From the NCBI GenBank assembly GCA_938084835.1, contig CALKER010000004.1, positions 186,001-250,000 on the forward strand: a DNA stretch of 64,000 nt. The letters run 5' to 3'. This DNA comes from an uncultured Thermoguttaceae bacterium. Its GTDB lineage: Bacteria; Planctomycetota; Planctomycetia; Pirellulales; Thermoguttaceae. The notes beneath the pieces are model-generated. The model had not been told where the DNA came from. It worked only from the letters and a program-made list of their open reading frames with translations, and did not search any database. The translations under genes were made by a program, and so were the position numbers. Positions 43,530-64,000 of this stretch are shown here, one piece after another. Position 1 is the stretch's first letter. Each line of letters opens with the position of its first letter.

Positions 43530-43661
43530 CCGGGAGACTATCGCAGCAAAGCCCGCTCGCGACAGAAGCGAAATTCCAGACTATAGTTCCACAGGTGTTT
43601 GAAAAATTTTTCGGCAACAACAGCCCCGCAGGAAACCCGTGTCAGCATTTGAGAATCCCCG

Positions 43662-44159: not shown

Positions 44160-44411
44160 CGGTAAGATGCAATCCAGGCCGGCTGAATGGGTTTTCCGGC
44201 GTTTTATGACCACAACGGCCGGTCCGTCCAGGGACCAAATCTGGCGAATTATTTGTAGCTGGGCGGAATTTTCCACCGTCCCTTCCGTTTGGCTGTCATT
44301 TTATAAAAAGAAACGCAAACCCAGGGGCGTGGTCTTTAGAATCCGTGCTTGCTTCGATTCAGTTTGACAGGCACCACCTGCCGCCATTTGAGAAGATGAG
44401 GGTTTCCCGGC

Positions 44412-45638: not shown

Positions 45639-45900
45639 CGCTCGCGGCAGAACTGTATGCGTTACTTCAACGAATGACGTCGCACGTGTGTCTATAAAAA
45701 GCCGTTGGCAATCAACCGAGCTATGGAGAAACGTAACTGCTGAAAGCCAACGTGGGCCGATTGGAAGCTACCCTTCCCTCTGGTCAAGTGGGGGCAGGTG
45801 ATCGTCTGCAGAAGGCACCATCTTGACACGGGAAGGCAGAAACAGCCGTCAAAAAGCTTGAACTCTGGAAGACATCGCGCAAATTTCAGGAACTGAAGCT

Positions 45901-46428
45901 ATGATCTCTGAAAACTCGGCAGTGGGGCGGCAATTTCTCGACGATGAGCTTCGCCGCGCCATCGAGAGCTATTTTCCGCGATATCCCCACCGCCAAGCAG
46001 CATTGCTTCCGGCGCTTCATTTGGTCCATCAACGCTTTGGATTCATCCCGCGGGAGGCTATTGTGGAACTTGCCGACTTCCTAGGAATTCACCCCGCCGA
46101 GGTCGCCGACGTGGTTTCTTTTTATAGCTTTTTTAAGCAGGATCGGCCGGTAGGAAAATATCGCATCTGGGTGTGTCGGTCGCTCAGTTGTGCTTGTCGG
46201 GGGGGCGAAGGTTTGCTTGAACTTTTAACCCAAAAATTGGGGGTAGCACCTGGTCAAACCACAGTTGACGGGCTGTTCACTTTGGAAGCGGCAGAATGCT
46301 TAGGGGCTTGTGACTGTGCCCCTGCGGTGATGGTCAACGATAAACTTTATGGCCCAATGACCCCGGAAAAAGCGGAGCAACTTTTGGAGGAGCTTCGCGC
46401 GGCCCCCGCGCCTGAAGTAACCTCTTGA
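45901..46428 (+). CDS. nuoE: NADH-quinone oxidoreductase subunit E
   Basis: This 175-residue thioredoxin-like subunit carries the [2Fe-2S] cluster N1a. Its ligands are Cys92 and Cys97 (VCRSLSCACRG) and Cys133 and Cys137 (ECLGACDCAP). Extra Cys residues at 99 and 139 lie beside them. PHRQAALLPALHLVHQRFGFIPREA and VADVVSFYSFF are family segments. AGGA precedes ATG 45901 at a normal distance. Gaps to nuoD (262 nt) and nuoF (219 nt) hold no gene. Confidence 0.96.
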   Translation: MISENSAVGRQFLDDELRRAIESYFPRYPHRQAALLPALHLVHQRFGFIPREAIVELADFLGIHPAEVADVVSFYSFFKQDRPVGKYRIWVCRSLSCACRGGEGLLELLTQKLGVAPGQTTVDGLFTLEAAECLGACDCAPAVMVNDKLYGPMTPEKAEQLLEELRAAPAPEVTS

Positions 46429-46647
46429 TAGTCCGCTCGGTGGATGACGGCAGGAAGTAAAGGGCCTTTTTAAGTGACAAGCGGCTCCCAGAGTACGCAC
46501 AGGGCTGCTTGCCAGCCTTAGCACGGGTATTGCGTGGCGAGGGGATCAAAGTCACCTCTTGAGCCTCGCTAGAAGCCGGGCTCGAACTAAGTGAATGGCA
46601 AAAGATTCGTCTAAGCTAACTACCCCTGTGGAGGGAGCAATTAACAC

Positions 46648-48093
46648 GTGACTGACTTCGAACCTGTGTTATTGGCTAACAAAACCAAAGATCGCTCCTG
46701 GACACTCACTGTATACGAATCTGGCGGTGGATATCAGACTTTGCGGCAGGTGCTTCGCCACAAATCTCCGCAAGATGTTACCAAAGCCGTGGAAGCAAGT
46801 GGTCTGCGTGGACGAGGTGGGGCCGGGTATCCTACGGCCCTTAAGTGGTCATTCCTGCCGATGGATCATCCCGGACCGTTTTACATGTGTGCCAATGCCG
46901 ACGAAAGTGAGCCCGGGACCTTTTGCAATCGAGTGCAGCTTGAATGTGACCCCCACCAGGTGCTTGAGGGAATCATCCTGAGCTGTTATGCCACCCGAAT
47001 TCGCCGCGCATACATTTTTCTTCGCTACGAATATCATCTGGCGTACCAGCGTTTGGAGGACGCTATTAAAGAAGCTTATGCGGCCGGTTATCTCGGCTCC
47101 AACATAGCAGGCAGCGACTTTTCGCTCGACATTTTCGTTCATCGCGGGGCGGGCGCCTATATTTGCGGAGAGGAAACGGGGCTTTTGGCCAGTATTGAAG
47201 GCAAGCGCCCTTACCCGCGAAGTAAACCGCCGTTTCCTACTTCTCGAGGACTATTCGGGAAGCCAACGGTCATCAACAATGTGGAAACTTTGGCCTGCGT
47301 GGTGCACATTCTTCAACGGGGTGAAGAGTGGTTCCGGTCCATCGGGACTCCCCCTCCCCCAGAGGACCCGAAAGAATTAGGCAGCTTTGGTCCCAAAATT
47401 TTCTCCCTCAGTGGCCACGTAAATCGTCCCGGTGTTTACGAACTACCCTTGGGTATTCCCTGCCGCGATTTGATCGAGCGACACGGCGGAGGCGTGTGGA
47501 AAGGCCGACGGGCCAAAGCCGTCGTTGTGGGGGGAATCAGTACCGGTATTCTCAGCTGCCACGAACTTGATACCCCGCTTGACTTTGTCGGGCCGGTGCG
47601 GGCCGGCTGTTTGGGCTTGGGCACCGGTGGGGTGATCGTCCTGGATGAAACCTTCCCCATCGTGGAACTTATGTACAACGGCTGCCGGTTTTTCGCCCAT
47701 GAAAGCTGTGGCCAATGTACCCCCTGTCGCGAAGGTGTCCCCTATGCCTTCCAGATCGTGGAGGCAATCCGCGGTGGGAGGGGGCGACTTGTAGACCTGG
47801 ACACATTGCTCGAGATCAGCCAAAACATCGGTATCACCCCGGGAACAACCATCTGCGGGCTAGCCGATGGTGCGGCTTGGATCGTGAAAACCTGCGTCAA
47901 CAAATTCCGCGAAGAATTGGAGGACTACATTCGTCGCACCAATCCGACAGGATACAAACGACGTCTCCCCTTGGGAACTATTATGTTGCCGCCAGGGGTC
48001 CCTGCGGGAATAAAGACCCGGTTCCCAAAGACGCTCCCGCCCCAGGGGACAAGTGCCCTGTCGCGATCCTCGCAAGAGACGGGGGGCAATTGA
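46648..48093 (+). CDS. nuoF: NADH-quinone oxidoreductase subunit F
   Basis: This 481-residue NADH-binding subunit has LRGRGGAGYPTALKW (53-67, NADH and FMN binding), CANADESEPGTF (81-92), GAGAYICGEETGLLASIEG (FMN) and the N3 cluster ligands Cys354, Cys357, Cys360 (SCGQCTPC) and Cys403 (ICGLADGAA). It starts with GTG 46648 after GGAGGGAG. The C-terminus has about 50 extra polar residues. It follows nuoE by 219 nt. Presence of E and F shows that this complex takes electrons from NADH. Confidence 0.97.
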   Translation: MTDFEPVLLANKTKDRSWTLTVYESGGGYQTLRQVLRHKSPQDVTKAVEASGLRGRGGAGYPTALKWSFLPMDHPGPFYMCANADESEPGTFCNRVQLECDPHQVLEGIILSCYATRIRRAYIFLRYEYHLAYQRLEDAIKEAYAAGYLGSNIAGSDFSLDIFVHRGAGAYICGEETGLLASIEGKRPYPRSKPPFPTSRGLFGKPTVINNVETLACVVHILQRGEEWFRSIGTPPPPEDPKELGSFGPKIFSLSGHVNRPGVYELPLGIPCRDLIERHGGGVWKGRRAKAVVVGGISTGILSCHELDTPLDFVGPVRAGCLGLGTGGVIVLDETFPIVELMYNGCRFFAHESCGQCTPCREGVPYAFQIVEAIRGGRGRLVDLDTLLEISQNIGITPGTTICGLADGAAWIVKTCVNKFREELEDYIRRTNPTGYKRRLPLGTIMLPPGVPAGIKTRFPKTLPPQGTSALSRSSQETGGN

Positions 48094-48272
48094 TTTTAAA
48101 GCCAACCTATACGAAAAAAGGGTGTCACCCACGACGGCGAAAAATTTTCAGGGATGATGGCTCCGCAAGTCCCATGGGATTTAGAAAAAAGTGGCTTTTT
48201 GTAAAACGGGGTATGTGCCTTACTCGCCACCAAAGGGGTTCTCGGTTTTTCGCTGCAAGGACCTAGACAACC

Positions 48273-49940
48273 ATGGCAATCGCCCTTGTTGACGGAATTG
48301 TCGTAGAATTCGACGAACGGGAAAAGCTTAACGGCATCCAGCTCGCTCGGCGGGCGGGAATTGAAATTCCCCACTACTGTTGGCATCCAGGGCTGTCGGT
48401 AGTGGCCAGTTGCCGGATGTGCCTGGTCGAGGTGGGAAAGCACGAACCCACCACAGGCGACATCTTCTTCTTTCCTCGGTTGATGCCCGCATGTAACATC
48501 CCAGCTTCGGACGGGATTGTACTTGTCACCCAAAGTGCTAAGGTTCAGCAAGCCCGAGCAATGGTCCAAGAAGACTTGCTGCTCCGGCATCCGGTGGATT
48601 GCCCCATCTGTGACAAAGCAGGCGAGTGCTACCTTCAGGACTATTACTTTAAGTATGGGCATAAACAGCGGCGCACCCCGTGGCATCCGTTTACAAGCCG
48701 GCGGAAAGATATCGGGGAAAAGATCACGCTGTTTGTCGACCGGTGCATCATGTGTAGCCGCTGCGTCCGCTTCACCCGGGAAATTAGCGGTTCTGGCGAA
48801 CTTATGATTGTCGACCGGGGGAATGAGCAGGTGATCGACATCTTTCCCGGGTTTCCCCTCAACAATAAACTTTCCGGAAATGTGGTAGATCTTTGCCCGG
48901 TCGGTGCCTTAGGGGACAAAGAGTTTCTGTACAAACAACGGGTGTGGTACTTGCGTTCCCACGGCTCCATTTGCATCGAGTGTGCTACAGGGTGTGCCCT
49001 GTGGGTCGACGAAAATCAGGATCGGATCTGGCGGATTCGGCCCCGGGAAAATCCGTTCGTCAATAAGTGGTGGATCTGTAATGACGGCCGGTACGCCTAT
49101 CCTTATATCCACTCGCCGCAGCGCTTGACAACTGCCGCGCGCAGAAGCCCCGATGGGTGGCGGCCTCTTAATGCTAAGACACTTTTGCAGGAATTGTCCG
49201 CCTTCCTTCAGGAAAAAGAACGATGGGTGGCTGTGCTGTCTCCGTTCCTCACGGTGGAAGAGGCTTACCTCCTTGCCCGCGTCATCAGGCAAGCAGATCC
49301 TCGAGCTCCCCTGGTGTTGGGTTATGTGCCAAGAACTGGCCGAGACGAGACCTTTCCCGGCGGATTCACCATCGCCGCCGAAAAGTGTCCCAACAGACGG
49401 GGGGTGGAAGAAGTGATCGGCTACTTTGCCCGAGACGTTCGCCCAATCGATGAACTGCCGCAAGTGATTCATCGACACGGAGCGGAGGCGCTTTGGATCA
49501 CGGGAGGGTGTCGGCACGGTTGGGAGCCAATCCCTTGGCTAGAAGAAATTCGTGAACTTAAGCTGCCCGTGGTACTCCAGGACATTTTCCCCTCCCCCCT
49601 TTCGGAATCAAGCGAATTTATCATCCCCGGGGCCACTTTCGCCGAAAAGCCCGGCAGCTACGTCAACCGACATCATCGGCTGCAAATGGTACGGGCTGCG
49701 ATTCGTCCCCCAAAAGGCGTGCTACCCGAGGGAAAACTTCTTTGGCAGCTCGAAGGCCGGGAGGGGCCATACGATCCGGCGGCTGTCCTGCAGGAACTGG
49801 CGGAGGACATTGTTTACTTCCGGGCGGCATTGGGGCCTATCCCGGAGACGGGAGTGGACCTTCGGGTGAATCTTTTAGCCAACAGCGCTACAGATGCCAG
49901 TAACGGGCCTGCTGCGGAATCGATGACGATTGATAGCTGA
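48273..49940 (+). CDS. nuoG: NADH-quinone oxidoreductase subunit G, with N7 site
   Basis: This protein has 555 residues, shorter than most NuoG (about 680-900). All Fe-S ligand sets are present: N1b (Cys36, 47, 50, 74), N5 (His106, Cys110, 113, 119), N4 (Cys158, 161, 164, 208), and the extra cluster N7 with C-x2-C-x3-C-x27-C (Cys234, 237, 241, 269). The following part (about 300-480) is a reduced molybdopterin-oxidoreductase-like domain (WVAVLSPFLTVEEAYLLAR, GSYVNRHHRLQM). AAGGA lies about 12 nt before ATG 48273. It connects the NADH module to the quinone arm. Confidence 0.95.
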   Translation: MAIALVDGIVVEFDEREKLNGIQLARRAGIEIPHYCWHPGLSVVASCRMCLVEVGKHEPTTGDIFFFPRLMPACNIPASDGIVLVTQSAKVQQARAMVQEDLLLRHPVDCPICDKAGECYLQDYYFKYGHKQRRTPWHPFTSRRKDIGEKITLFVDRCIMCSRCVRFTREISGSGELMIVDRGNEQVIDIFPGFPLNNKLSGNVVDLCPVGALGDKEFLYKQRVWYLRSHGSICIECATGCALWVDENQDRIWRIRPRENPFVNKWWICNDGRYAYPYIHSPQRLTTAARRSPDGWRPLNAKTLLQELSAFLQEKERWVAVLSPFLTVEEAYLLARVIRQADPRAPLVLGYVPRTGRDETFPGGFTIAAEKCPNRRGVEEVIGYFARDVRPIDELPQVIHRHGAEALWITGGCRHGWEPIPWLEEIRELKLPVVLQDIFPSPLSESSEFIIPGATFAEKPGSYVNRHHRLQMVRAAIRPPKGVLPEGKLLWQLEGREGPYDPAAVLQELAEDIVYFRAALGPIPETGVDLRVNLLANSATDASNGPAAESMTIDS

Positions 49941-50053
49941 GTCCGCGACGCGCCGAATGGCTTCGCATGCGGGAAGCACAATTCGTCCACAATTGACAAG
50001 CCTCTGGGAAGTGGAAAACGCCTAAACCTCGCCGGTTGGGGAGGTGAATATCC

Positions 50054-51283
50054 GTGACGTGGATCATACTTATTGAGGTGCTAGTAAAGATCGCCCTACT
50101 TCTTGGCGGGCTGATGTTCGCCGCCGCCTACTTGGTGCTTGTAGAACGATGGATAGCAGCTTGGGTGCAAGACCGAATTGGTCCCAACCGCGTCGGTATT
50201 CCCTTGACGAAAATTCGCTTGTTCGGCTTAGGGCAACCCATTGCCGACGGCGTCAAATTTATCTGTAAGGAAGAGTTTACGCCTGGTCACGTCGACCGTA
50301 CTTTGTACACGCTTGCCCCAATAATCATGCTCGTAACAGCACTTGGGGCGTTTGCCGTTATTCCCTTCGGAAGTGTCCTGCCACCCTTCCCTTTGCCAGA
50401 CGGAAGTACTTATCAGATCCGGCTTATTCTTCTACCCGCTTTCGACGCAGGGATCCTTCTTTTTCTAGCGTTTGGGGGGTTGGGAGTGTTTGCGGTGGCT
50501 CTGGCCGGTTGGGCTAGTAACAACAAATACAGCTTCTTCGGAGGTGTTCGTAGCGCGGCCCAGCTGATCTCGTACGAAGTACCCCTCAGCTTGGCAATCT
50601 TAGGAGTTGTGGTGGCGTCAGGCTCCCTGCATCTGGACCACATCATTCTCACTCAGGCTCAAAGCGGATGGTGGAATATCTTCGTGTATCCTCTGGGTTT
50701 TCTGGTGTTCTTGGTAGCTGTCTGCGCGGAAGCCGGCCGACTACCTTTCGATCTGGCCGAAGCCGAGCAGGAGCTGGTGGGAGGATACCACACGGAATAT
50801 TCCGGAATGCGCCTCATGCTCTTTTTGGTATCGGAATTTCTCCACATGGTGGCGGCCTCCTTCCTAATCACCATCCTTTTTTTGGGCGGGTGGCACCTGT
50901 GGGGAATCACCGGGTCCAACGAATTGGTCGGCTGGGGAGTGGCGCTTGTCCGTGTGATTGTGCTTGTCGCCAAGGTCTTCCTTGTGATCCTACTGTTTAT
51001 GCTTGTGCGTTGGTCCTGGCCGCGATTCCGCTTCGACCAGCTGATGGATTTAGCTTGGAAAGTTCTCCTGCTATGGGGCATAATCCATTTCGTGCTCGCA
51101 GCCGGATGGGCCTATGCGGGCGTTAATCAACCCATGTGGCTCGTGGCCGCAACCAATTGGACGACACTAGTGATTGTGTGGTTGATCACCGCTTTAGTCT
51201 CACCGCCAGAAAGCGATAACCGGCCTCGCCGGGAGCCTGCCCCGGTGTGGTCGGGGGAGGCGGTGGAAAGTCCGACTTCATGA
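50054..51283 (+). CDS. nuoH: NADH-quinone oxidoreductase subunit H
   Basis: This 409-residue membrane subunit forms part of the quinone tunnel. It starts with GTG 50054 after GGAGGTG. Family motifs are VERWIAAWVQDRIGPNRVG (about 30-48), LFGLGQPIADGVKFICKE, GWASNNKYSFFGGVRSAAQLISYEVPLSL and EAGRLPFDLAEAEQELVGGYHTEYSGM (conserved acidic residues on the E-channel). It has at least eight transmembrane helices. The C-terminal 30 residues are a polar tail. Confidence 0.97.
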   Translation: MTWIILIEVLVKIALLLGGLMFAAAYLVLVERWIAAWVQDRIGPNRVGIPLTKIRLFGLGQPIADGVKFICKEEFTPGHVDRTLYTLAPIIMLVTALGAFAVIPFGSVLPPFPLPDGSTYQIRLILLPAFDAGILLFLAFGGLGVFAVALAGWASNNKYSFFGGVRSAAQLISYEVPLSLAILGVVVASGSLHLDHIILTQAQSGWWNIFVYPLGFLVFLVAVCAEAGRLPFDLAEAEQELVGGYHTEYSGMRLMLFLVSEFLHMVAASFLITILFLGGWHLWGITGSNELVGWGVALVRVIVLVAKVFLVILLFMLVRWSWPRFRFDQLMDLAWKVLLLWGIIHFVLAAGWAYAGVNQPMWLVAATNWTTLVIVWLITALVSPPESDNRPRREPAPVWSGEAVESPTS

Positions 51284-51417
51284 TAATTGGGCATTTACGT
51301 CCACCGGCGTAGCTTTCAAAAAATAGGTTGGAAATTTGAATTGCGCCACCGCGTGGACCTTTCAAGCCAAGCTTTTTATGTCATCAGCAACAGTCACCTT
51401 TCGGGAGATAGCCGATC

Positions 51418-52065
51418 GTGAGCCACGCTGGTACAAAGAAAATCCGTTGGGTCAACGAGACGCCACTTTCCCCAATAGAGCGAACCTACATTCCCTTGGT
51501 TCTTCAAGGGTTAACTACGACTGTTCGACATCTGGTTAGCAAAAAGATCACCCTGCAATTTCCTGAGGAACGGTATGAGCCGGCCGATCCGATCATTTAC
51601 CGCGGGGTGCACCGGCTCAATCGTGACGCACAAGGCCGAGTGAAATGTGTTGCCTGCTTTCTGTGCGCGACGGCCTGCCCCGCCCGATGCATTGACATCG
51701 TCGCGGGCGAAAGCCCTTGGCCTGATCGAGAAAAATATCCGGTACACTTCACAATTGATATGCTCCGTTGTATCTTTTGCGGCATGTGCGAAGAGGCTTG
51801 CCCGGTCAACGCCATCGAGTTAACCAGCCTCTACGACCTGTGTGGCAAAAGCCGGGAGGAAATGGTCTTCGATAAAAATAAGCTACTCTTGATATACGAC
51901 TGGACCAAAGACGACGAGCCACCCTTGATGCAGATTTTCGAACAAGAGGCGATTCGGGAGGAACCCCCTGAGGAGACACAAAGCTGGGCCGCGCCGGAGC
52001 ATCCCCCTTTCGATCACGTAGCAGAAAAGGCGGCCGAGATGTATCGGAGAGATTCGGCCGGCTAA
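51418..52065 (+). CDS. nuoI: NADH-quinone oxidoreductase subunit I
   Basis: This 215-residue protein with two [4Fe-4S] clusters (N6a, N6b) has the ligand sets Cys77, 80, 83, 87 (CVACFLCATACP) with CIDI after, and Cys118, 121, 124, 128 (CIFCGMCEEACP). The start is GTG 51418 after GGGAG. YRGVHRLNRDAQGRVKC precedes the first set, as in other NuoI. The C-terminal third is acidic and variable. It follows nuoH by 134 nt. Confidence 0.97.
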   Translation: MSHAGTKKIRWVNETPLSPIERTYIPLVLQGLTTTVRHLVSKKITLQFPEERYEPADPIIYRGVHRLNRDAQGRVKCVACFLCATACPARCIDIVAGESPWPDREKYPVHFTIDMLRCIFCGMCEEACPVNAIELTSLYDLCGKSREEMVFDKNKLLLIYDWTKDDEPPLMQIFEQEAIREEPPEETQSWAAPEHPPFDHVAEKAAEMYRRDSAG

Positions 52066-52233
52066 CACTTCAGGTCCATCCCTTTAAAAAGCAAATTCGT
52101 CGGGTGGGGGGAAGCGCGTCCAAAAATATCAGCCAGGTTTCCTTGATAACTCCGACTATGCAAAATTTTTGGGCAACTCCAAGGATGCGGCTGTCCCTCC
52201 CGCGGAGGGAGAACTCTTTGGGAGCACACCATC

Positions 52234-53064
52234 ATGGGTGATTTGGTGCTGGTGGCCATTCTCTTCGCCCTGGCGTTAGGGCTGGCGTTGGGTGTGCCGA
52301 GCACTCGTTCACGGCTGGCCGCCGGCATTTTGGGTGCTTTGGGAGCTGGACTTTTACTGGCACGGCTTGTCCCGATTGGGGTTTGGGTATATTCGCTGTT
52401 GTTCTATCTTTTCGCGGCGATCACGGTAGTAGCGGCCGTCTGCGCCGTAAGCCTCCGCCATCCAATTTATTGCGCGGTGTGGTTCGGAGTCATGTTTCTG
52501 GGCACAGCGGGCCTGCTTCTTCTAATCGGGGCACAATTTCTGGCGGTTGCCACCTTGGTAATCTATGCGGGCGCAATCTTGGTCATCTTCCTGTTCGTAC
52601 TAATGTTTGCTCAGCCGGAGGGCCGGGCTCATTATGATATCATGGTGCGCCGCCCGGGCGTGGTTGCCCTGGTAGCTATGGCTTTTGCCGCGCTCATTGC
52701 CGGGGCTGCCATTGTGTTTTTAGGTACTGGGGAATTGGCAAAGCTGTCTGCCCCGGCCGAGGAGCGCGCTACTGGGGTCCTTCAGCCCGAGCACGTAGCG
52801 GCACTTGCCGAAGTGCTTTTTTCCCGACATCTTATCGCCCTGGAAGTGGTCGGAATTATCCTTTTAGTAGCTTTGATCGGTGCCGCGCTTATTGGCGGTA
52901 GGGCCGAGGGTTCTGCGTGGCGTCACCTTAGCTCAGAAGCCTCTCGGAACGATAGGCGTAAACACCCGGGAAACTCGTCAGAGGCCTTGCCCGAACAACC
53001 GGGGCCGACAACAAGCGGAAGTAACCGGGTGATCGACGAGCTCAGGAGGTCTTCGGGCGGATAG
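52234..53064 (+). CDS. nuoJ: NADH-quinone oxidoreductase subunit J
   Basis: This 276-residue membrane subunit has five hydrophobic segments, including VWFGVMFLGTAGLLLLIGAQFLAVATLVIYAGAILVIFLFVLMFAQPEG (about 82-130), the conserved NuoJ core with pi-bulge helix TM3. The last helix is around 205-228 (FSRHLIALEVVGIILLVALIGAALIGG). A polar tail of about 45 residues follows, longer than usual. GGAG precedes ATG 52234 by about 10 nt. A 558-nt gap to nuoK comes next. Confidence 0.93.
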   Translation: MGDLVLVAILFALALGLALGVPSTRSRLAAGILGALGAGLLLARLVPIGVWVYSLLFYLFAAITVVAAVCAVSLRHPIYCAVWFGVMFLGTAGLLLLIGAQFLAVATLVIYAGAILVIFLFVLMFAQPEGRAHYDIMVRRPGVVALVAMAFAALIAGAAIVFLGTGELAKLSAPAEERATGVLQPEHVAALAEVLFSRHLIALEVVGIILLVALIGAALIGGRAEGSAWRHLSSEASRNDRRKHPGNSSEALPEQPGPTTSGSNRVIDELRRSSGG

Positions 53065-53622
53065 AGAAAATCGCCCGCTGAAAAACAATAGCCACAAACA
53101 AGACCATTAAACACAATCGATGCACTTCGAGCTTAGTACCGGACCAGTTTCCAGAGCCACCTGAAAAATCCCAGCGCACACTCGGGAAAACCCCGGAAAG
53201 TATCCAGGCTTCCCTCGAAGAAGCTTAGCCACAAGTTGTGGCCAAAACGTGCCTAAGAACCGGTTGGAACTTATGAGTTTATGTTCTGGAAATACTGAGC
53301 TCCGTCGCGTAGGCCCAGGCCTTTGGCGGTTCAGGGCGAAGGGGTGTCACTCCCCAGATCGGAAGCTAGCCCGCGCGTCCCTCCCTGTGAATGGATAACC
53401 GAGGGAGTATACCAAGCCCGCCAAAGACCACGGAGGATGGCTCGGGGAGTCTGGGATCGATAACGGGGTGATGTGGAGGTAGCCGCTTGCTCCAACACCT
53501 TCGGTACCGCCGGCTTAACCAGCAGTAAAACCCGCTTTCTTGCCGGAGAGGGCTTGAGGGCCACTCTGGGCCATGAGTCCACTGAAACCGTCAATGAAAC
53601 AATCCTGCCGGAGCTGATCACG
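53065..53622. other. Gap between nuoJ and nuoK, palindrome only
   Basis: There are 558 bases between two genes that are usually adjacent or overlapping. The only clear element is the palindrome GCCACAAGTTGTGGC at 53228-53242. A 96-codon minus frame (53331-53621) is not gene-like. The frame of nuoK stays open upstream to 53473, but its sequence is not NuoK-like. Confidence 0.55.
53228..53242. promoter_or_regulatory. 15-bp palindrome between nuoJ and nuoK
   Basis: GCCACAA and TTGTGGC are exact complements around one G. It lies about 165 nt after nuoJ. It may be an operator or an RNA stem that lowers readthrough into nuoK. There is no T-run. Confidence 0.35.
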
Positions 53623-54078
53623 GTGAATGAGGCGAGCCTTCTGGTCCACTACCTCACCGTTGGTGCCCTTCTGGTGGGCATTGGAATGGCAGGCTTTTTA
53701 GCCCGCCGGAACATCATCCTCATGTTTCTGTCACTGGAGATGATGCTTCAGGGAGTCGCCCTAAGTGCAGCCGCTTGGAGCCGATTCCACAACGATTTTG
53801 GGGGCCAAATTTTAGTGCTGTTTACCATCGCTGTTGCCGCTGGGGAAGCCGCCATAGCCCTCGCGCTGATAATCGTACTTTTCCGAGAAAGCGGTACCCT
53901 TGATGTGCTTCAATGGGTCGGCTTGCGTGAGCCGGATCTTCCGCCGCCCCAGCCGGAAAGTCCACCCCAAGATATCTCAGCTGAACTCCGCCCACAACCG
54001 ATCTGGCCACGCTTGGCCCCCGCCGGTCGAAAACCCACAACTTCACCAGAAGCGGAAGAATACCGTCCCCGGCTATAA
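53623..54078 (+). CDS. nuoK: NADH-quinone oxidoreductase subunit K
   Basis: This protein has about 151 residues. I chose GTG 53623 because GGAG lies 9 nt upstream and the sequence from there (NEASLLVHYLTVGALLVGIGMAGFL) matches the NuoK start. Three helices include the proton-channel segment RRNIILMFLSLEMMLQGVALS with conserved Glu, and FTIAVAAGEAAIALALIIVLF with the second Glu. The core is about 100 residues; a proline-rich tail of about 50 residues follows, which is unusual for NuoK. Confidence 0.92.
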   Translation: MNEASLLVHYLTVGALLVGIGMAGFLARRNIILMFLSLEMMLQGVALSAAAWSRFHNDFGGQILVLFTIAVAAGEAAIALALIIVLFRESGTLDVLQWVGLREPDLPPPQPESPPQDISAELRPQPIWPRLAPAGRKPTTSPEAEEYRPRL

Positions 54079-54519
54079 AAGCAGATAACTGAGGTAATCG
54101 AGGCAAAAGAACATCTGAACAACTTAATAAACGCGCCAAATTTTACTTGCTTTAGGTGCTCAAGCCACAATAGGAAGTGTTCAAGGTGGGCCATCGGAAA
54201 AAAGTGTGGTAGGTAGATCCCAGAGGTCTTCAGAGGTGTTCCGCGAAACTTCTTTGCAGAAGTTAACAGAAAGGAGGACCAGACAAAACGCTCTGCCCTG
54301 GCAAGTAACGAAAAGGCCGCAGGCCTTATCGTTCCCCCCAAGGGGATGGCACGTACCGCCGAGTCTGTGACCTTCCAGGCAAGCGATAAAAAGCGGAACA
54401 CCGCGGGATAAGAAATCAACATCTCCCTCCATGGAGAAATGGCTCAAGCTTAAGAACACGTGGGTGCACTTCGGGGGATCTCTACCCCTTTTTTCTAACA
54501 ACAATGAAGTGGAGCAAGT
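54079..54519. other. Gap between nuoK and nuoL with two hairpins
   Basis: There are 441 bases with no gene. It holds AACTTCT/AGAAGTT around TTGC (54247-54264) and AAGGCC/GGCCTT around GCA (54313-54327). Confidence 0.55.
54247..54327 (+). promoter_or_regulatory. Two hairpins between nuoK and nuoL
   Basis: Stem 1 is AACTTCT (54247-54253) with AGAAGTT (54258-54264), 7 bp and a TTGC loop. Stem 2 is AAGGCC (54313-54318) with GGCCTT (54322-54327). Neither is followed by a T-run. They may process or stabilise the operon message. Confidence 0.35.
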
Positions 54520-56655
54520 GTGACCACGATCATGATCGATAGTATCATCGTCATCGCCATAGCCGGGCCCTTGCTGGGATCCATAATCACCGCGGTTTTA
54601 GGGCCACGTTTCTTACGCGACCGAAGTCACATACCGGCCATAGCCGGGGTAAGCGTGGCTTTTGTGGCGAGTTTGCTGCTTGCTGGCTATCTTTGTTTTG
54701 GTCTGGCAGGAGGCGATACAGCTCCTCGTTCCCCAGAAAGCGCCGATCTCGACTTTGGCATCTCTTCCGATTTCGCCATGGGGATAGAGCGTATCGTGAC
54801 TTTATGGACGTGGGCGCATGTCGACCAAGCCTACAGAGCTCCCTCGTTGCCCTCGGTTGCCTCGCCGATAGATCGGCCTTTTGCGATTGCGGTCAGTCTT
54901 CGAATCGATCCACTTACTGTGTTTATGCTTGTGACGGTGACGTCGGTTTCACTTCTTGTGGTCATTTACTCGATCGGTTACATGGCGGGGGATCCGGGCT
55001 ACTGGCGTTTTTTCACCTACATGTGCTTGTTTGTCTTTTCGATGATGATGCTTGTCTCAGTAAGTAATTTTCTCCTGCTTTACATCTTCTGGGAGGCGGT
55101 GGGATTATGTAGCTATCTGCTCATCGGGTTTTGGTACACGCGGCCGGCGGCTGCGGCTGCGGGGAAAAAAGCTTTCCTTGTGAATCGGGTGGGAGACTTC
55201 GGCTTTGCTCTAGGTGTCTTCCTTTTATGGACAGCTTACGGCACACTTGACATGCATGATACTCATCTTGTGCCTGGCATTTTGGGAGAAACTCGCATCG
55301 CTGCCGGCCCTAGCGGCTTTGTGGGAGGAACCCTTGGGCTGGGCATTTGCATGCTTTTGTTTTTGGGAGCGTGTGGGAAGAGTGCCCAGTTTCCGCTTCA
55401 CGTGTGGTTGCCCGATGCGATGGAGGGCCCAACGCCGGTCAGCGCCCTCATCCATGCAGCAACGATGGTCACCGCCGGTGTGTACCTGGTGGCGCGGTGT
55501 GCGCCTCTTTTCCATGCTGTGCCCGAAGCTCAAGTCGTAGTCTGTTTGATTGGAACCGTAACGGCACTTCTTGCCGCTTTCATTGCTCTTAGCCAAACTG
55601 ACGTGAAGCGAATCCTCGCCTATTCCACAATCAGTCAATTGGGTTACATGTTCGCTGCAGCCGGTCTGAGCACAGTAACAGCCGTCGCTGCCGCCATGTT
55701 CCACTTATTCACGCACGCTTTCTTTAAAGCACTCCTTTTCCTCTCCGCAGGAAGTTTAATGCATGCACTGTCTGGCGAGATCGACCTGCGTCAATTCGGT
55801 GGCTTACGAAGAAAACTTCCCCTGACACACCTCATGTTTTTGGTGGGAGGGCTGGCTTTAGCGGGTGTGGCTCCCTTGGCAGGATTTTGGAGTAAAGATG
55901 CGATCCTCCATGAAATTGCCGAACAAGAAAACCGCCTGCCGATGGCCTCACTTGTCTTTTGGGGCCTTGTCCTCGGAGCGGGACTAACCGCCTTTTACAT
56001 CTTTCGAGCCTACTTTCTTGCGTTTTGGGGCCCCGAGCGGTTGCCCGAATCAAGCGGCGGCTACGTCCACGAATCCCCCCCGGTAATGCTCGTGCCGATG
56101 CTGCTTTTGGCGCTGGGGGCTGTGGGTGCTGGCTGGGTCTCATTTCTGCCTGGTGGAGTCTCCGGACTCCTTCAGCTTACGCCATCCCTGGTAGCGGTAG
56201 GAGGCGAACAGGCAGCCGAGCCTGCTCATCTAGAGCATCTATCCTTCGGTCCCAAGCATCTTCATGAGCTTGCCCACCATATTCCCGTTATTAGCACAGC
56301 GGTTGCTGTAGGAGGTATTCTGCTGGCAGCCATCATCTACCTTCCCTACGGAAGACCACTTCTTACGGTAGTGTGGACCCTAACCCGTGGGATTGGGCTC
56401 TATGCCCTTTCCTACGGGAAATTGTTTATCGATGAAGTTTACGAAGGTGCGATCGTGCGACCCTTGCGTGCTTTGGCAAGCCTCTGCTCCACGTTAGACC
56501 AAAGAGTAATCGACCTGCGGGCGGTGGATGGAACCGCCCAGGCAATCCGCACAGCGGGCCAAGCCCTACGCACCTTAGGTCACGGGATGCTACCGGGTTA
56601 TGCTCTCGCGATGCTGACCATTGTGGTGCTTCTTCTTGCTTTCATGATGCTTTAA
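54520..56655 (+). CDS. nuoL: NADH-quinone oxidoreductase subunit L
   Basis: This 711-residue proton-pumping antiporter-like subunit is the distal one. The N-terminal part holds ISLRIDPLTVFMLVTVTSVS-type and MYSIGYM-type segments (here IDPLTVFML and IYSIGYMAGD). FWEAVGLCSYLLIGFWY contains the channel Glu. KAFLVNRVGDFGFALG and KSAQFPLHVWLPDAMEGPTPVSALIHAATMVTAGVYLVAR are the central motifs with conserved Lys and His. The amphipathic C-terminal helix region follows. It starts with GTG 54520, 5 nt after GGAG. Confidence 0.97.
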   Translation: MTTIMIDSIIVIAIAGPLLGSIITAVLGPRFLRDRSHIPAIAGVSVAFVASLLLAGYLCFGLAGGDTAPRSPESADLDFGISSDFAMGIERIVTLWTWAHVDQAYRAPSLPSVASPIDRPFAIAVSLRIDPLTVFMLVTVTSVSLLVVIYSIGYMAGDPGYWRFFTYMCLFVFSMMMLVSVSNFLLLYIFWEAVGLCSYLLIGFWYTRPAAAAAGKKAFLVNRVGDFGFALGVFLLWTAYGTLDMHDTHLVPGILGETRIAAGPSGFVGGTLGLGICMLLFLGACGKSAQFPLHVWLPDAMEGPTPVSALIHAATMVTAGVYLVARCAPLFHAVPEAQVVVCLIGTVTALLAAFIALSQTDVKRILAYSTISQLGYMFAAAGLSTVTAVAAAMFHLFTHAFFKALLFLSAGSLMHALSGEIDLRQFGGLRRKLPLTHLMFLVGGLALAGVAPLAGFWSKDAILHEIAEQENRLPMASLVFWGLVLGAGLTAFYIFRAYFLAFWGPERLPESSGGYVHESPPVMLVPMLLLALGAVGAGWVSFLPGGVSGLLQLTPSLVAVGGEQAAEPAHLEHLSFGPKHLHELAHHIPVISTAVAVGGILLAAIIYLPYGRPLLTVVWTLTRGIGLYALSYGKLFIDEVYEGAIVRPLRALASLCSTLDQRVIDLRAVDGTAQAIRTAGQALRTLGHGMLPGYALAMLTIVVLLLAFMML

Positions 56656-56742
56656 AGGTAAAGACCCCATGAGGAGCCTCCGCGCTCAGAAGAAGCACGA
56701 GACCTGAAACTATAGAGTACCCATTTTGGGCGGACAGTACTG

Positions 56743-58740
56743 ATGGAAGTGTTGTTGATCATTAGCCTGTTTTTGCCCACCCTCGGGGCGCTAGCAATTT
56801 GGGTCGGCGCCGCTCCGCCACGCCAAACGGCGCTTGTGGTAGCGGTGACGGTCCTCGTGATGGCCTTGGTATTGGCGGGGGGATATCGCGGCGCTGAACG
56901 TCACGACGGTGTCCCCGGAGAATTTGCCGTGATCGATGACCTCGGCTGGCTAGGAGTGAGTACACCTTGGCTTGATATTCGATTGAGCGTGGGCCTCGAT
57001 GGGTTAAGTCTCCCTCTGTACATCCTTACCACCTTGCTTACAGTTGTGGCCATTATCGTCAGTTGGGAGGAGATCAAGCTTGGTCCGCGGGCCTTTTACG
57101 GGCATCTGCTTTTGCTGGAGACTGCCATGCTCGGCGTCTTCGCCGCCCGCGACGTGATCCTTTTTTATGTATTCTTCGAGTTGACTTTGCTTCCCCTGTA
57201 TTTTCTCATCGGCATTTGGGGAAGTGAAGCCCGCCAATATGCGGCGATCAAATTCTTTTTGTTCACACTTGCGGGAAGTGTGTTGACCTTTTTGGCCCTT
57301 TTGGCCATTAGTTTTTGGCATGGATATAACGTGGGGCGACTGACGTTTTCGATTCCGGAAATCACTGCTGGGCTTAGAGCTCGCCCCATGGAGTTTTCCG
57401 CCCAGTTGGCGATTTTCCTCGGACTTTTCGCCGGTTTTGCGATTAAGGTTCCGTTAATCCCCTTCCACACTTGGTTGCCGCTGGCTCATGTGGAAGCTCC
57501 CACTGCCGGCAGCATTTTGTTGGCGGGAATCTTGCTTAAAGTGGGCAGTTACGGATTCGTGCGCTTTTGTTTGCCTCTCCTGCCCGAAGCCACCGTCGCT
57601 TGTCTACCCTGGCTTGTGACACTTTCCGTAGCAGGCGTTGTGTACGGATCCTTTGTGGCCTTGGCCCAACAGGATCTAAAGCGTCTCATCGCTTATTCGA
57701 GTATTGGGCATCTGGGGTTCTGCATGCTCGGTGTCTTTTCACTTAGCCGAGCCGGCGTGGCTGGCGGTGTCCTGCAGATGATCAACCACGGCATTTCTAC
57801 AGGAGCACTTTTCGCACTGGTGGGAATGCTTTATGAGCGATTTCACACCCGGCAGATCGCCGCCTACGGCGGACTGGCTCGCAAAATGCCCGTCTGGGCC
57901 TTTTTCATGGGCTTGATGGTGTTGGCGAGTATCGGTCTTCCGGGACTCAACGGTTTTGCCGGTGAGGTGCTGGTGCTCATCGGCTTTTTCCAACGTGTTT
58001 GGGGACAATCGCAATGCCCGCCAGAGTGGTTTACTTACTTGGCAGCGTTGTCGGTCCTTGCTACCTTCGGGGTTGTTCTTGCTGCATGGTACATGTTGTG
58101 GATGACGGAGCGAGTCGTCTTTGGGCCTGTCCGGCTGCCCGTAGCACGGGGCAAGAACTCCGAAGATCAGTCCGAGCCCCCTCCGTCGCGGCATCCACAC
58201 GGGGTGGATTCGCTCGGTACGGAATCGCACCCGGGTGAAAATCTCTGGGACTTAAAACCGCGGGAAATCTGGGCACTTTGCCCACTTGCAATCCTTGTCG
58301 TATGGATTGGGGTCCAGCCGAGTTTTTTCCTGCGAATGTTCGAACCCACGTTGAGTTACCTTGTAGGGCCGGCAGAGCGGGCACTCCTGCGGCGACTACC
58401 AGCGGAAGAATTGCCGCTTGGCGCTTTCGTCCATTTCTCGCGTTCGATAACGTCGGGAAGTAAGGCTCAAACCCCGCCGGAATCCTTCAACGATTGCGAT
58501 TTCGACATCGGTAACTTGTTTGAAAGTCGAAGCACCGTCCTCGGTTGGGCCCGCCATCCCGAAGCGATAATCCGTCAAACCCAAAGCCGCAACGGAGGGC
58601 TACTCAGCGAAGGCTGTGCTTTCGGCAGTAGCAGTCCGCATGCCAGCGTTATGAACCCAAGGAAAAGGCTGTCGGAGTTTGAAGCGCTAATCGCAGCGCA
58701 GTGCTCCGGCAGCACTGATCTCGGCTTAACCAGAGAATAG
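56743..58740 (+). CDS. nuoM: NADH-quinone oxidoreductase subunit M, long tail
   Basis: This antiporter-like subunit has 665 residues where about 500 is normal. Core motifs are FYVFFELTLLPLYFLIGIWG with the channel Glu, KVPLIPFHTWLPLAHVEAPTAGSILLAGILLKVGSYGFVRF (Lys and His), QQDLKRLIAYSSIGHLGFCMLGVFS and MINHGISTGALFALVGMLYERFH. A polar insert of about 35 residues lies before the last helix, and about 125 polar residues follow it. These additions have no sign of a domain. It starts 87 nt after nuoL. Confidence 0.95.
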   Translation: MEVLLIISLFLPTLGALAIWVGAAPPRQTALVVAVTVLVMALVLAGGYRGAERHDGVPGEFAVIDDLGWLGVSTPWLDIRLSVGLDGLSLPLYILTTLLTVVAIIVSWEEIKLGPRAFYGHLLLLETAMLGVFAARDVILFYVFFELTLLPLYFLIGIWGSEARQYAAIKFFLFTLAGSVLTFLALLAISFWHGYNVGRLTFSIPEITAGLRARPMEFSAQLAIFLGLFAGFAIKVPLIPFHTWLPLAHVEAPTAGSILLAGILLKVGSYGFVRFCLPLLPEATVACLPWLVTLSVAGVVYGSFVALAQQDLKRLIAYSSIGHLGFCMLGVFSLSRAGVAGGVLQMINHGISTGALFALVGMLYERFHTRQIAAYGGLARKMPVWAFFMGLMVLASIGLPGLNGFAGEVLVLIGFFQRVWGQSQCPPEWFTYLAALSVLATFGVVLAAWYMLWMTERVVFGPVRLPVARGKNSEDQSEPPPSRHPHGVDSLGTESHPGENLWDLKPREIWALCPLAILVVWIGVQPSFFLRMFEPTLSYLVGPAERALLRRLPAEELPLGAFVHFSRSITSGSKAQTPPESFNDCDFDIGNLFESRSTVLGWARHPEAIIRQTQSRNGGLLSEGCAFGSSSPHASVMNPRKRLSEFEALIAAQCSGSTDLGLTRE

Positions 58741-58795
58741 ATCGAAACTATTTTCGTTGACGGTTGGTACCACAGGCTGCGGAGCTTCCCGCACG

Positions 58796-60424
58796 ATGTC
58801 TACGGAAACATTGTTGATCATTATGCCAGAGGTAGTTCTATGTACGATGGCCGTTGTCATCTATGCAGCCTGTTTATGGATTGGCCATGGCAGCCTTTGG
58901 CGGTGGTTGGCGCTGGCCGCCCTAGTGATGGGAATTTTCACTTGGGGGATCAGTCCGCAGCATGTCTCTCACTTAGCTCAGCGAGAAGTAATGAGTGATT
59001 CGCTGGGCGAATACTTTCGGCTGTTAATCCTGGTGTCAGGTTTTCTGCTTATTCTCTGCCAATGGGAGCCTCCTGCCGGTCGGGGCAAGGCCGAATACAT
59101 GGCCACTTTGCTCCTTGCTCTTGCGGGTGCGATGTTGGCCACCTCAGCCAAAGATCTCGTGCTGATCTTCGTGGGACTTGAGTTTCTATCGGTGGCCACC
59201 TACGTGCTCCTCTGCGTGGGACGAGACGATCGGCTGGGACACGAAGCAGTGCTGAAATATTTCTTCCTCAGCGTGCTCAGTACGGTACTCCTCCTCTATG
59301 GGTTTTCGTTTCTTTACGGGCTGGGAGGATCAACGGACCTGAGCGTGGTGACTCATCGCCTGGCAACGATTTGGACGGGCACTACTGCGGTTAACTATCT
59401 TGCCATCGTCGCTTTGGTACTAATCGGGGCAGGACTTGCTTTTAAGTCGGCGGCAGCACCGTTTCACTTTTATGCTCCGGACGTTTACAGTGGGACAAGC
59501 TACACCAATGCCGCCTTGCTTTCGGCACTGCCCAAAGTAGCAGGCTTGGCAGTCTTCCTCCGGTTGACAGGCCAAGTCTTTGCTGTCGGTCTGACCCCGA
59601 GCTGGCAACTGCTTGCCATTTTGGCAGCAGCCAGCCTAGCGGTGGGGAACTTGGGGGCCCTCCTTCAGCGTCACTTGCGGCGGTTGTTAGCTTATTCGTC
59701 GATCGCGCACGCGGGGTACATGTTAATGGGAATTGCCGCGTTTGCCGCCGCTCGAGAGGCCGGCACCACCTCGCCATTTTTCTCCTTCGATGGCGCCGGA
59801 GCTTTTGCTCTCTACATCCTTGTTTACCTGTTAGCAACCCTTGGCATTTTCGCTGGACTTATCGCCTTGGAACGTGAAGGCCGCGAAGTGGTCGATATCG
59901 CCGATCTCTCAGGAGCGGCTTGGTCGAATCAACCGGCGGCGCGACTCGTGGCGTGGTCGATGGTCATCTGCCTTTTCAGTCTGGCCGGGGTACCGCCTTT
60001 GGCGGGATTCTGGGGAAAGCTGGCCATCTTCGGAAGTGCCCTCAGCATTCCTCCAGCCCACTCCGATGCCTTCGGCGTGTTCGTAGGACTTGCCATCTTT
60101 GCGGCGATCAACACTGCGATAGGGGCAGCCTACTACTTGAGAATTATTGCTGCTCTTGTATTCTCGCCGGCAACGCAAAGGATCTCCGTTCGGTCGGCTG
60201 TTGGGCCACCGATAGCCGTGGTCATCACCGCTTTTTTCATCATCGGGATCGGCCTTTGGTGGCAGCCTTGGTGGCGCTGGGCCCAAACAGCAAGCCCACG
60301 CGTAACCAGCACCTTGTGGGTCAATGAAGAGACTCCCACAAGTGGGGAAGCAGGTTTCGCCCACAGCGATTGGCGCAACAATTTACCGAATGCGGCGCGG
60401 AATTTGGTTGCCCAGAATCCCTGA
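58796..60424 (+). CDS. nuoN: NADH-quinone oxidoreductase subunit N
   Basis: This third antiporter-like subunit has about 542 residues. I chose ATG 58796 with GGAG about 11 nt upstream; an in-frame GTG-type start at 58757 is less likely. Motifs are DLVLIFVGLEFLSVATYVLLCVG with the channel Glu, FKSAAAPFHFYAPDVYSGTSYTNAALLSALPKVAGLAVF, and RHLRRLLAYSSIAHAGYMLMGIAAF. The C-terminus is polar. It ends the nuo locus, followed by a strong hairpin. Confidence 0.95.
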   Translation: MSTETLLIIMPEVVLCTMAVVIYAACLWIGHGSLWRWLALAALVMGIFTWGISPQHVSHLAQREVMSDSLGEYFRLLILVSGFLLILCQWEPPAGRGKAEYMATLLLALAGAMLATSAKDLVLIFVGLEFLSVATYVLLCVGRDDRLGHEAVLKYFFLSVLSTVLLLYGFSFLYGLGGSTDLSVVTHRLATIWTGTTAVNYLAIVALVLIGAGLAFKSAAAPFHFYAPDVYSGTSYTNAALLSALPKVAGLAVFLRLTGQVFAVGLTPSWQLLAILAAASLAVGNLGALLQRHLRRLLAYSSIAHAGYMLMGIAAFAAAREAGTTSPFFSFDGAGAFALYILVYLLATLGIFAGLIALEREGREVVDIADLSGAAWSNQPAARLVAWSMVICLFSLAGVPPLAGFWGKLAIFGSALSIPPAHSDAFGVFVGLAIFAAINTAIGAAYYLRIIAALVFSPATQRISVRSAVGPPIAVVITAFFIIGIGLWWQPWWRWAQTASPRVTSTLWVNEETPTSGEAGFAHSDWRNNLPNAARNLVAQNP

Positions 60425-60774: not shown

Positions 60775-62310
60775 ATGTCCGAGCGTCGAATATCTATCGC
60801 AGCGTTGGCTCAGTTGCTGTCCAAGACTGTCCAACCTGTTTATGCCGTGGACGCCAAGCGGCGACTGGTCTGGTGCAACGAGGCCTTTGCAGAGTTTTTC
60901 GGTATTTCTCCACAGGTGGTGGTGGGACAGGAGTGCCGGTGGACTTCGCCGGGTCTTGCCCCTGAACAGCTCCCGCGAACGGATCAGGTGCTTTCGGCGA
61001 TTTGTCCTTCCCCCGAGGTTCTTTCGGGGCAAAGCACTGCCGGCCGAATCTGCTGGAAAGATCCGCAAGGAAGAACTCGGATTTATCGCGTGCCTTATCT
61101 CTGCTTGCGAGATTCCCAAGGAAGCCCTCTAGTTCTCGTGGGGCTCATTGGTGAGGAAATAACCCCCGAGCTTGCCCAAGAGTCACCCCGGGAAGAACCG
61201 CTCACATCTGCTCAGCTTTGGCACGAGCGCTTATCTGGGATGCTGCAAAAAGAAGCCATGCGTTACCGGGTGGAACATCTCCTGGGCAATAGCCCTGCCA
61301 TCCAACGGGCCCGCCGCCAGGTGATGGCTGCCGCCCAAACGAAAGCGCCGGTGCTTGTGGTTGGCCCAAGCGGTTCCGGAAGGCGATTCGTCGCCCAGGC
61401 CATTCACTACAACTCCCCAGAAGGTCTGCGAAGCTCCTGTATCACACTTGCCTGTCAGGTGCTTGATGCGGAGGCGGTCTATTCGACGTTAAAGGCCAGC
61501 CTTCGTTTTCGGCCGGGACCGGGGGAACTGCCCATCGGCACCATCGTACTGCTGGACGCAGAGGCTTTACCTGCCGGCGTGCAGAGCCAGATCGCTGCGG
61601 AGCTCAACGCTGCCGAAGCAATCATCCGACTTGTGGCCACTAGCTCGATCCCCTTACTGCAACTTGCGGAGAAAGCTCAGGCCGATCCGAATTTCGCCAC
61701 CTGGATGAGTACGTTGGTCATCGAACTTTGCCCACTAGCCCAACGCCCCGAGGACATCCCACTGCTGGCCCAATATTTTCTGGAAGAAATTAACCGGGCC
61801 AGCGAAAAACAAGTCGCGGGGTTCTCCCCAGAAGCCCTTGATTGGCTTGTAGCATACCCCTGGCCGGGAAACGTTGCCGAGCTCCGGACGATTGTTTCCC
61901 ACGCGCATCGGGTGGCCCGGGGACCCGTGGTAACCATCGAGGATCTTCCAGAGCGGATCTCCTTTGCCATCCAGGCTGCCTCCCGTCCGCCGGCGAAAGA
62001 GGAAACCATCGAGCTGAGGAGCTTTCTCCAGGCCATCGAGCACGAGTTGGTTCAACGCGCTTTGCAACGGGCTCGAGGGAACAAGGCAAAAGCGGCTCGA
62101 TTGCTCGGGATAAGCCGGCCGAAGTTTCTGCGACTGCTCAGCCAATTGGGGGAGCAAGCAACCAAACCGCCGAAAACACCCCGTCGCCGTCCCATCCCCG
62201 ACCGCTCGAGGCTTCCGCCTTTGACGGAAGAGGCCGCCGAAGAGGAAGTGCCCACCTTCGAAGAACTGGACGATGCGGGAAATCCTTCCGCGCCTCCCCC
62301 AGCAGCATAG
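60775..62310 (+). CDS. PAS-AAA-Fis protein, degenerate sigma54 activator
   Basis: This protein has about 511 residues. An N-terminal PAS-like domain (VYAVDAKRRLVWCNEAFAEFFG, about 22-43) is followed by an AAA region like that of NtrC-type activators and a C-terminal Fis helix-turn-helix (ELVQRALQRARGNKAKAARLLGISRPKFLRLL, about 424-455). Key ATPase parts are lost: Walker A is GPSGSGRR (197-204) with Arg for Lys, Walker B is LLDAE (259-263) where DE is expected, and the GAFTGA sigma54 loop is absent. WPGNVAEL (363-370) is kept. It probably binds DNA without ATP-driven sigma54 activation. An acidic, Pro-rich tail ends it. GTG 60694 is an alternative start. Confidence 0.85.
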   Translation: MSERRISIAALAQLLSKTVQPVYAVDAKRRLVWCNEAFAEFFGISPQVVVGQECRWTSPGLAPEQLPRTDQVLSAICPSPEVLSGQSTAGRICWKDPQGRTRIYRVPYLCLRDSQGSPLVLVGLIGEEITPELAQESPREEPLTSAQLWHERLSGMLQKEAMRYRVEHLLGNSPAIQRARRQVMAAAQTKAPVLVVGPSGSGRRFVAQAIHYNSPEGLRSSCITLACQVLDAEAVYSTLKASLRFRPGPGELPIGTIVLLDAEALPAGVQSQIAAELNAAEAIIRLVATSSIPLLQLAEKAQADPNFATWMSTLVIELCPLAQRPEDIPLLAQYFLEEINRASEKQVAGFSPEALDWLVAYPWPGNVAELRTIVSHAHRVARGPVVTIEDLPERISFAIQAASRPPAKEETIELRSFLQAIEHELVQRALQRARGNKAKAARLLGISRPKFLRLLSQLGEQATKPPKTPRRRPIPDRSRLPPLTEEAAEEEVPTFEELDDAGNPSAPPPAA

Positions 62311-62739: not shown

Positions 62740-63249
62740 GTGAACACTTTCGGATTACCTGCTTGGGTTGTGGCACCCAATGCCACAAACGAACCAAAAC
62801 GCTATGTTCCCCCGGGGACCGTGTGGCTTATCAGCCGCGATCCCATGGGGGCTGCCCTTGTGCTGCGGTATGTGCCCCGGGACCTCAATCTTCGGCTATG
62901 TAGGGATATTTCTCAAGCGGCACAAAGCGTAAAAACGGGCTTGCCCCAATTTGTGATCTATTACTGGCAACCGGACGAGACGGAAACCTTCTTCGCCTGG
63001 ATAAAAGAGCTCTCGCGAGCTTGTCCTCCCATAGGTGTGGCCGTTGTGGGAAAATTCCTTTCCCTTTCCCACCAGCTGGCTCTTCGCGCCATGGGGGTAG
63101 CGCTTGTGGTAGACGACTTATTCAAGCTGGAAAAGCTAAGTACGATGGTGAAACGATATTTTGAGTCTGTGCCTTGGTGGTCCTGGCCCGACGAGGTGCT
63201 AAGGCCGTTCCGACTGCCGTGGGAGGGTTATGCCACAGTGAAGAGCTAA
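62740..63249 (+). CDS. Small receiver-like protein of unknown function
   Basis: This protein has about 169 residues. I chose GTG 62740 because GAGG lies about 10 nt upstream; GTG 62695 would add 15 residues. No standard domain is recognised. The sequence alternates strands and helices: GTVWLISRDPM, PQFVIYYWQPDETETFFAWIKELSRACPPIGVAVVG, and LALRAMGVALVVDDLFKLEKLSTMVKRYF. This looks like an atypical receiver fold without the usual phospho-acceptor pattern (inference). It sits between the degenerate activator and mrp on the same strand, so a regulatory role with the activator is possible. Confidence 0.55.
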   Translation: MNTFGLPAWVVAPNATNEPKRYVPPGTVWLISRDPMGAALVLRYVPRDLNLRLCRDISQAAQSVKTGLPQFVIYYWQPDETETFFAWIKELSRACPPIGVAVVGKFLSLSHQLALRAMGVALVVDDLFKLEKLSTMVKRYFESVPWWSWPDEVLRPFRLPWEGYATVKS

Positions 63250-63549: not shown

Positions 63550-64000
63550 ATGGCTCAGTTAATTGCCGAGCAACTTAAGGAAATCCTTGATGATTTCGCC
63601 GATCCGGAAACCGGCCGGGGTCTTGTCCGCGCCGGCCAGCTCCGGGATGTGCGGATCACGGAAAGTGCGGTCGAGGTGCGAGTCGGATTTTCCCGATTTG
63701 TCGCACCGCTGTGGAACGATCTCGCCGCACAAGTTGCGCAGCATCTCCGCAACCGAATTCCTACCCCTGTGGATGTGCACGTGGAAGTAATAGAACATCC
63801 TCGCCCCGCCGAACAACTCGAGCCCGTGGGGCTGGCCGTCAAGGCCGTGATCGCAGTGGCTGCCGGAAAAGGAGGTGTGGGCAAAAGTACGGTAGCCGCC
63901 CTCCTAGCATTCGGGCTCAAACGGCTGGGAGCCCGCGCGGGATTATTGGATGCCGATGTGTTCGGCCCAAGCATCCCTCACCTTCTCGGGTGCTACGAAC
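63550..64000 (+). CDS. Mrp/ApbC-type Fe-S carrier ATPase, N-terminal part (cut by window edge)
   Basis: The frame from ATG 63550 is open to the window edge, 150 codons. The N-terminal DUF59/MIP18-like domain (about 5-80, [23 protein letters not shown]) is followed by a ParA/NBP35-type ATPase with [11 protein letters not shown] (105-114, deviant Walker A with both lysines) and [17 protein letters not shown] (131-147). Such proteins load Fe-S clusters onto client enzymes. Its place near the nuo locus, whose subunits need eight to nine clusters, is suggestive. The C-terminal part with the CxxC motif lies outside the window. Confidence 0.93.

Follow-up and report, generated by a model that had tools for sequence, protein, structure and literature searches.

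GAFTGA is needed for contact with sigma54, and EBPs that lack this motif act at sigma70 promoters, some of them without ATP (PMC10274813, PMC3162934). Several such GAFTGA-less derivatives are already known, namely TyrR, DhaR, HupR, VpsR and some NtrC proteins. TyrR, DhaR and HupR once were sigma54 activators; their GAFTGA is changed, and they act with sigma70 (PMC3162934). The known regulators of this kind serve single pathways, either as metabolite or as two-component regulators. The NtrC proteins of R. capsulatus and Caulobacter carry a phospho-receiver, an NtrC-type AAA+ domain from which GAFTGA is deleted and a Fis HTH, and they belong to the sigma70-acting class (PMC10274813). Both need the ATP site, the Rhodobacter protein for binding and the Caulobacter protein through its Walker A and B residues. 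VpsR of Vibrio cholerae, which has a receiver and binds c-di-GMP (PDB 7v2b title), acts at sigma70 promoters, reportedly without a need for ATP (PMC10274813).

The window (the whole stretch analysed, 64,000 nt of an uncultured Thermoguttaceae bacterium) encodes a regulator with a comparable layout and a different sensor domain:

60775..62310, + strand: coding sequence of a 511-aa regulator with a PAS domain, a degenerate AAA+ domain and a Fis-type HTH (ORF and Pfam; start backed by orthologues)
60808..61164, + strand: PAS domain, about residues 12-130 (Pfam PAS_4, E 4e-9, and PAS)
62026..62133, + strand: intact Fis-type HTH, about residues 418-453 (Pfam HTH_8, E 6e-10; near-invariant residues)

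The ORF and its start were confirmed as given in the initial annotation, the predicted ATG being sound because orthologues start at an equivalent ATG. The PAS, AAA and Fis-HTH order proposed there was also recovered, with Pfam PAS_4/PAS, Sigma54_activ_2, AAA_lid_14 (E 5e-23) and HTH_8 in series, and the HTH_8 match together with the conservation of the HTH bore out the view that the Fis domain is intact. The match to the full Sigma54_activat model was confined to the first 70 positions of the model, and no NCBIfam equivalog came near its cut-off for the regulator. In the PAS domain, Asn35 and Pro78 were invariant among 89 aligned family members. A haem or metal site at Cys77-Pro78 was considered and dropped because the Cys is kept in only 58 of the 89.

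A search of 60 relatives gave two tiers, long matches to about E 1e-39 and then an AAA-HTH crowd from about E 1e-33. At E 1e-60, the family profile had matches in 199 of 297 genomes of the class (Planctomycetia); since canonical proteins score up to 1e-70, this threshold is too loose, and our counts take E below 1e-75, at which about 157 of the 297 genomes (counted from the matches listed) have the regulator, nearly always in one copy. In a phylum sample of 246 genomes, matches were found in 14 of the 16 genomes of the same class. Five matches outside the class reached at most 238 bits, and the four that were readable were canonical, with GAFTGA-type loops and a Walker A Lys. Within the phylum sample, the regulator family is limited to one planctomycete class and was seen nowhere else; the named loci that carry it come from Pirellulales, Planctomyces, Schlesneria and relatives. 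No account of the family in planctomycetes was found in the open-access literature.

In the tree, a fully supported branch parted the family from the canonical activators, apart from L083. This very divergent planctomycete protein (9578-10894) is canonical by score and lies inside the family on the tree, with a Walker A Arg and no GAFTGA, and its placement means that the family has members past the score cut-off used.

Motif columns were read in an alignment of the 89 family members with 37 proteins called canonical by score. The hallmarks of canonical activators that are absent from the AAA+ domain of the regulator comprise GAFTGA, the pre-sensor-1 insertion, Walker B, sensor 1, the Arg finger and the sensor-2 Arg. 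The corresponding positions in the window are as follows:

61363..61383, + strand: Walker A remnant GPSGSGR (residues 197-203), with Arg203 for Lys (alignment with canonical activators)
61504..61509, + strand: point after Arg244 where the GAFTGA loop is deleted (alignment; motif in 0 of 89 members)
61540..61557, + strand: Walker B remnant TIVLLD, residues 256-261 (alignment to the canonical TIFLDE strand)
61618..61623, + strand: point where the pre-sensor-1 (L2) loop is deleted, flanked by residues 282 and 283 (alignment)
61645..61647, + strand: sensor-1 position, Ser291 for Asn, ATN to TSS (alignment)
61702..61704, + strand: arginine-finger position, Trp310 (alignment)
61876..61878, + strand: sensor-2 position, Ala368 for Arg, GNVREL to GNVAEL (alignment)

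A GAFTGA-like string occurred in 35 of the 37 canonical activators but in none of the 89 family members scored alike. The absence of this loop, claimed earlier from the window protein, was thus confirmed, and its residues are deleted rather than mutated; homologues in the same genomic place that keep GAFTGA and the Walker motifs were looked for among these members, with a negative outcome. The core columns of the pre-sensor-1 (L2) insertion, the second sigma54-facing loop, were gaps in 88-89 of the 89 members, and the median spacing from Walker B to sensor 1 was 26 residues in the family versus 37 in canonical activators. In Walker B of the window regulator, the Asp is replaced by Leu260 and the Glu by Asp261, and both columns are unconserved across the family. 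The initial annotation had rightly called this motif lost, but its reading of DAE for DE was off by one column, the true alignment being TIVLLD. The sensor-1 Asn was lost in the family, an Arg stood at the finger position in 11 of 89 members versus 36 of 37 canonical activators, and at the sensor-2 column 55 of the 89 members carry Asp and 5 carry Arg, the residue found in 35 of the 37. The losses of the pre-sensor-1 loop, the two sensors and the finger add to those named in the initial annotation. These family-wide loop deletions and losses of Walker B, the sensors and the finger support the earlier proposal that the sigma54 remodelling machinery has been lost.

At the Walker A Lys column, 50 members have Arg, 33 have Lys and 6 have other residues. 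The Lys and Arg states are scattered over the tree, with at least six changes forced, and a Walker A Arg was therefore rejected as the defining trait of the family. The substitution first noted in the window protein is real (Arg203, directly followed by a second Arg) but is not the key event. Of the 89 members, 86-87 keep the Walker A glycines, and this near-invariance, together with the Lys in one third of the members, suggests that nucleotide may still be bound. If so, the AAA+ domain could bind ATP, ADP or another nucleotide without hydrolysis, and this binding, instead of the PAS domain, could be the main switch of oligomerisation and DNA binding. R. capsulatus NtrC, which requires ATP binding and not hydrolysis (PMC10274813), would be a precedent for such a switch, and the conserved glycines and the Lys-bearing members fit it; however, Walker B, the finger and both sensors have disappeared, the window protein has exchanged its Lys for Arg with another Arg behind it, and the glycines are possibly needed for the turn only. 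We regard the nucleotide switch as unlikely.

When the regulator was compared with that of the congener G002, the differences at codon positions 1, 2 and 3 were 0.34, 0.22 and 0.67, a pattern indicating that the protein is under selection. Identity to G002 was 0.65 for AAA, 0.61 for PAS and 0.59 for HTH, so that AAA is conserved like the rest. Class-wide conservation and the codon-position pattern rule out a recent loss or a pseudogene; the motif losses are not local decay, and they belong to one old, well-kept family. The joint loss of many catalytic motifs might also suggest a functionless, decaying remnant of a sigma54 activator, but full-length frames throughout the class, the selection pattern, an AAA part no less conserved than PAS and HTH, and conserved neighbours have already refuted this for the family, and we give it hardly any credence. 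The AlphaFold2 model of the regulator (pLDDT 87) keeps the AAA+ fold, with matches to LuxO (Z 24.8), FleQ (24.7), VpsR (23.1, PDB 7v2b) and PspF (23.1), although a kept fold in a model carries no information on activity.

Taken together, the regulator is probably (about 70%) an ATPase-dead scaffold protein of the TyrR or VpsR style, binding DNA independently of sigma54 and sensing through its PAS domain; we infer its sigma54 independence from its anatomy. The AAA+ domain would serve as a structural scaffold, ATP hydrolysis and the remodelling of sigma54-RNA polymerase presumably both being gone. The regulator would bind DNA through its Fis HTH in dimeric or oligomeric form, with the PAS domain setting the geometry, and would repress or activate promoters that depend on another sigma factor, in the manner of TyrR, VpsR and Rhodobacter NtrC.

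The described systems differ from the regulator in several respects. Its sensor is a PAS domain, unlike the phospho-receiver of Rhodobacter and Caulobacter NtrC, and nearly all of the ATP site that these two proteins need is gone. VpsR shares the AAA+ fold and the absence of GAFTGA with the regulator, whereas its receiver, phylum and gene neighbours are different. TyrR, DhaR and HupR are compared here by GAFTGA, and in contrast to these regulators of single pathways, the present protein represents a class-wide lineage beside nuo and mrp genes. In the open-access literature, we found no class-wide, mostly single-copy lineage that lacks the two loops and almost all of the ATP site and is tied to a pseudo-receiver and Mrp.

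The host genome contains one rpoN, a gene found in 39 of 40 genomes searched, and six strong canonical activators, all of which keep GAFTGA or GAFTDA, the Walker A Lys and the finger motif. With these partners present and its own AAA+ fold kept, the regulator could join a canonical activator in one assembly, as an ATPase-dead subunit or antagonist, and modulate sigma54 transcription in trans. This is very improbable, as the regulator has lost the cross-subunit Arg finger and the two loops that face sigma54, it keeps a sensor and an HTH of its own, and the loci read, whose labels cover nuo, SM and Mrp only, showed no canonical activator gene next to it. Four loose sigma54 promoter matches, each with one mismatch, were found in the whole window and none in the gap between nuoN and the regulator; one of the four, at 61300, falls within the coding region on the opposite strand. 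A scan for sigma70-type promoters at the locus did no better than shuffles, and a search for an upstream operator conserved among three congeners aligned nothing.

In the window, the regulator follows nuoA-N and is itself followed by a small ORF (SM) and Mrp:

42256..60424, + strand: nuoA-nuoN, complex I locus upstream of the regulator (NuoD and NuoN by Pfam; other subunit names from sequence and order)
62821..63249, + strand, ORF open from 62695: SM gene, pseudo-receiver (profile, and fold match of a homologue)
63550..64000, + strand: start of mrp, an NUBPL/ApbC-type Fe-S carrier gene that runs past the window end (Pfam)

Neighbours were counted by eye from the locus table. Of 53 Pirellulales-clade loci whose flanks were long enough, 24 had a same-strand nuo gene, as a rule nuoN, that ended no more than 600 bp upstream of the regulator, and in several of the 24 the spacing was only 8-25 bp. 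Among about 30 loci from other orders, none had nuo directly upstream, and one had nuoN 2.3 kb away. In the window, the gap between nuoN and the regulator (60420-60775) measures 350 bp and contains the palindrome GCTCCTAGCACCGCTAGGAGC, which makes co-transcription uncertain here; in this genus, the regulator may be transcribed separately from nuo. A small co-directional SM gene lay downstream of the regulator at 33 loci, in four of which it overlapped the regulator stop codon, and Mrp came close behind at 26. SM and Mrp are therefore the steadier association of the regulator than nuo.

Regulator matches with strong scores also occur in genomes whose NuoD matches are weak (about 1e-65) or absent, namely G051, G092, G110 and G127, together with G066 and G070, which have none; true NuoD proteins scored about 1e-160 to 1e-286. 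In G051 and G092 (loci L133 and L149), SM and Mrp still adjoin the regulator despite the lack of a recognisable NuoD. The role of the regulator thus cannot be complex I regulation alone, and a strict complex I regulator was rejected as the general role. The suggested link to respiration holds as conserved synteny in the Pirellulales, not as a general tuning, and respiration tuning through nuo is a local possibility only. In this order, the synteny suggests that the regulator acts together with the pseudo-receiver next to it and that it probably has a bearing on complex I, on the supply of Fe-S clusters or on both.

The SM protein of the window had no Pfam match, and its homologues gave stray weak ones only. 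The SM profile reached E 6.4e-6 at best against solved receivers, and the model of the homologue L039 (pLDDT 90.8) has a five-stranded alpha/beta receiver fold that matches TadZ and response-regulator receivers, the TadZ receiver being the best. The phospho-acceptor Asp and the conserved Lys of receivers are not conserved, the consensus reading VVVEL in strand 3 and SPR at the strand-5 Lys-Pro position, and most members end in a C-terminal LPW. SM belongs to a fast-evolving, undescribed pseudo-receiver family, present at 33 loci and lacking a Pfam family. In TadZ, the receiver is fused to a MinD-like ATPase; here, mrp follows the receiver-like SM gene. In the class sample, the strong SM matches of the order lay in regulator-bearing genomes and were mostly adjacent to the regulator (read by eye), and the regulator and SM are likely a functional pair.

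Mrp gave a CbiA/MinD/ParA match and is by Pfam name in the same NTPase family as NUBPL, which is described as a mitochondrial complex I assembly factor (PMC6196649); this role renders a complex I/Fe-S theme plausible but goes no further. FleQ with FleN of Pseudomonas offers a parallel, in that the AAA+ fold of FleQ is close to that of the regulator and a related P-loop ATPase, Mrp, is encoded near the regulator too. The differences are that FleQ structures bind ATP analogues, that Mrp is of the Fe-S carrier type and that it is known here from gene proximity. The regulator, the pseudo-receiver and Mrp might even form one sensory module that joins an ATPase-dead activator scaffold to a phosphorylation-dead receiver. 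In it, the switch would come in trans from Mrp, through its Fe-S or nucleotide state, or else from the PAS ligand, and would pass Fe-S or complex I status on to transcription, but we consider this quite doubtful.

Proteins that have lost GAFTGA are known singly, whereas here a whole class keeps one such lineage with its fold and DNA-binding part conserved. The family would show that an AAA+ domain can be useful as a scaffold without ATP chemistry, and labelling such genes as sigma54-dependent regulators is misleading. For planctomycetes, it adds a candidate regulator of respiration or Fe-S metabolism that is open to genetic testing.

Strong SM homologues were also seen apart from the regulator in genomes that have both (G037:C1:115216-115644, G054:C63:201384-201743 and G045:C59:140394-140819). 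In a Planctomyces-like group (L057, L059, L068, L069, L073 and L075), the regulator occurs without nuo and Mrp neighbours and with other recurrent ones, among them an opposite-strand gene for a protein of about 201 aa that resembles a HAM1/RdgB-type pyrophosphatase.
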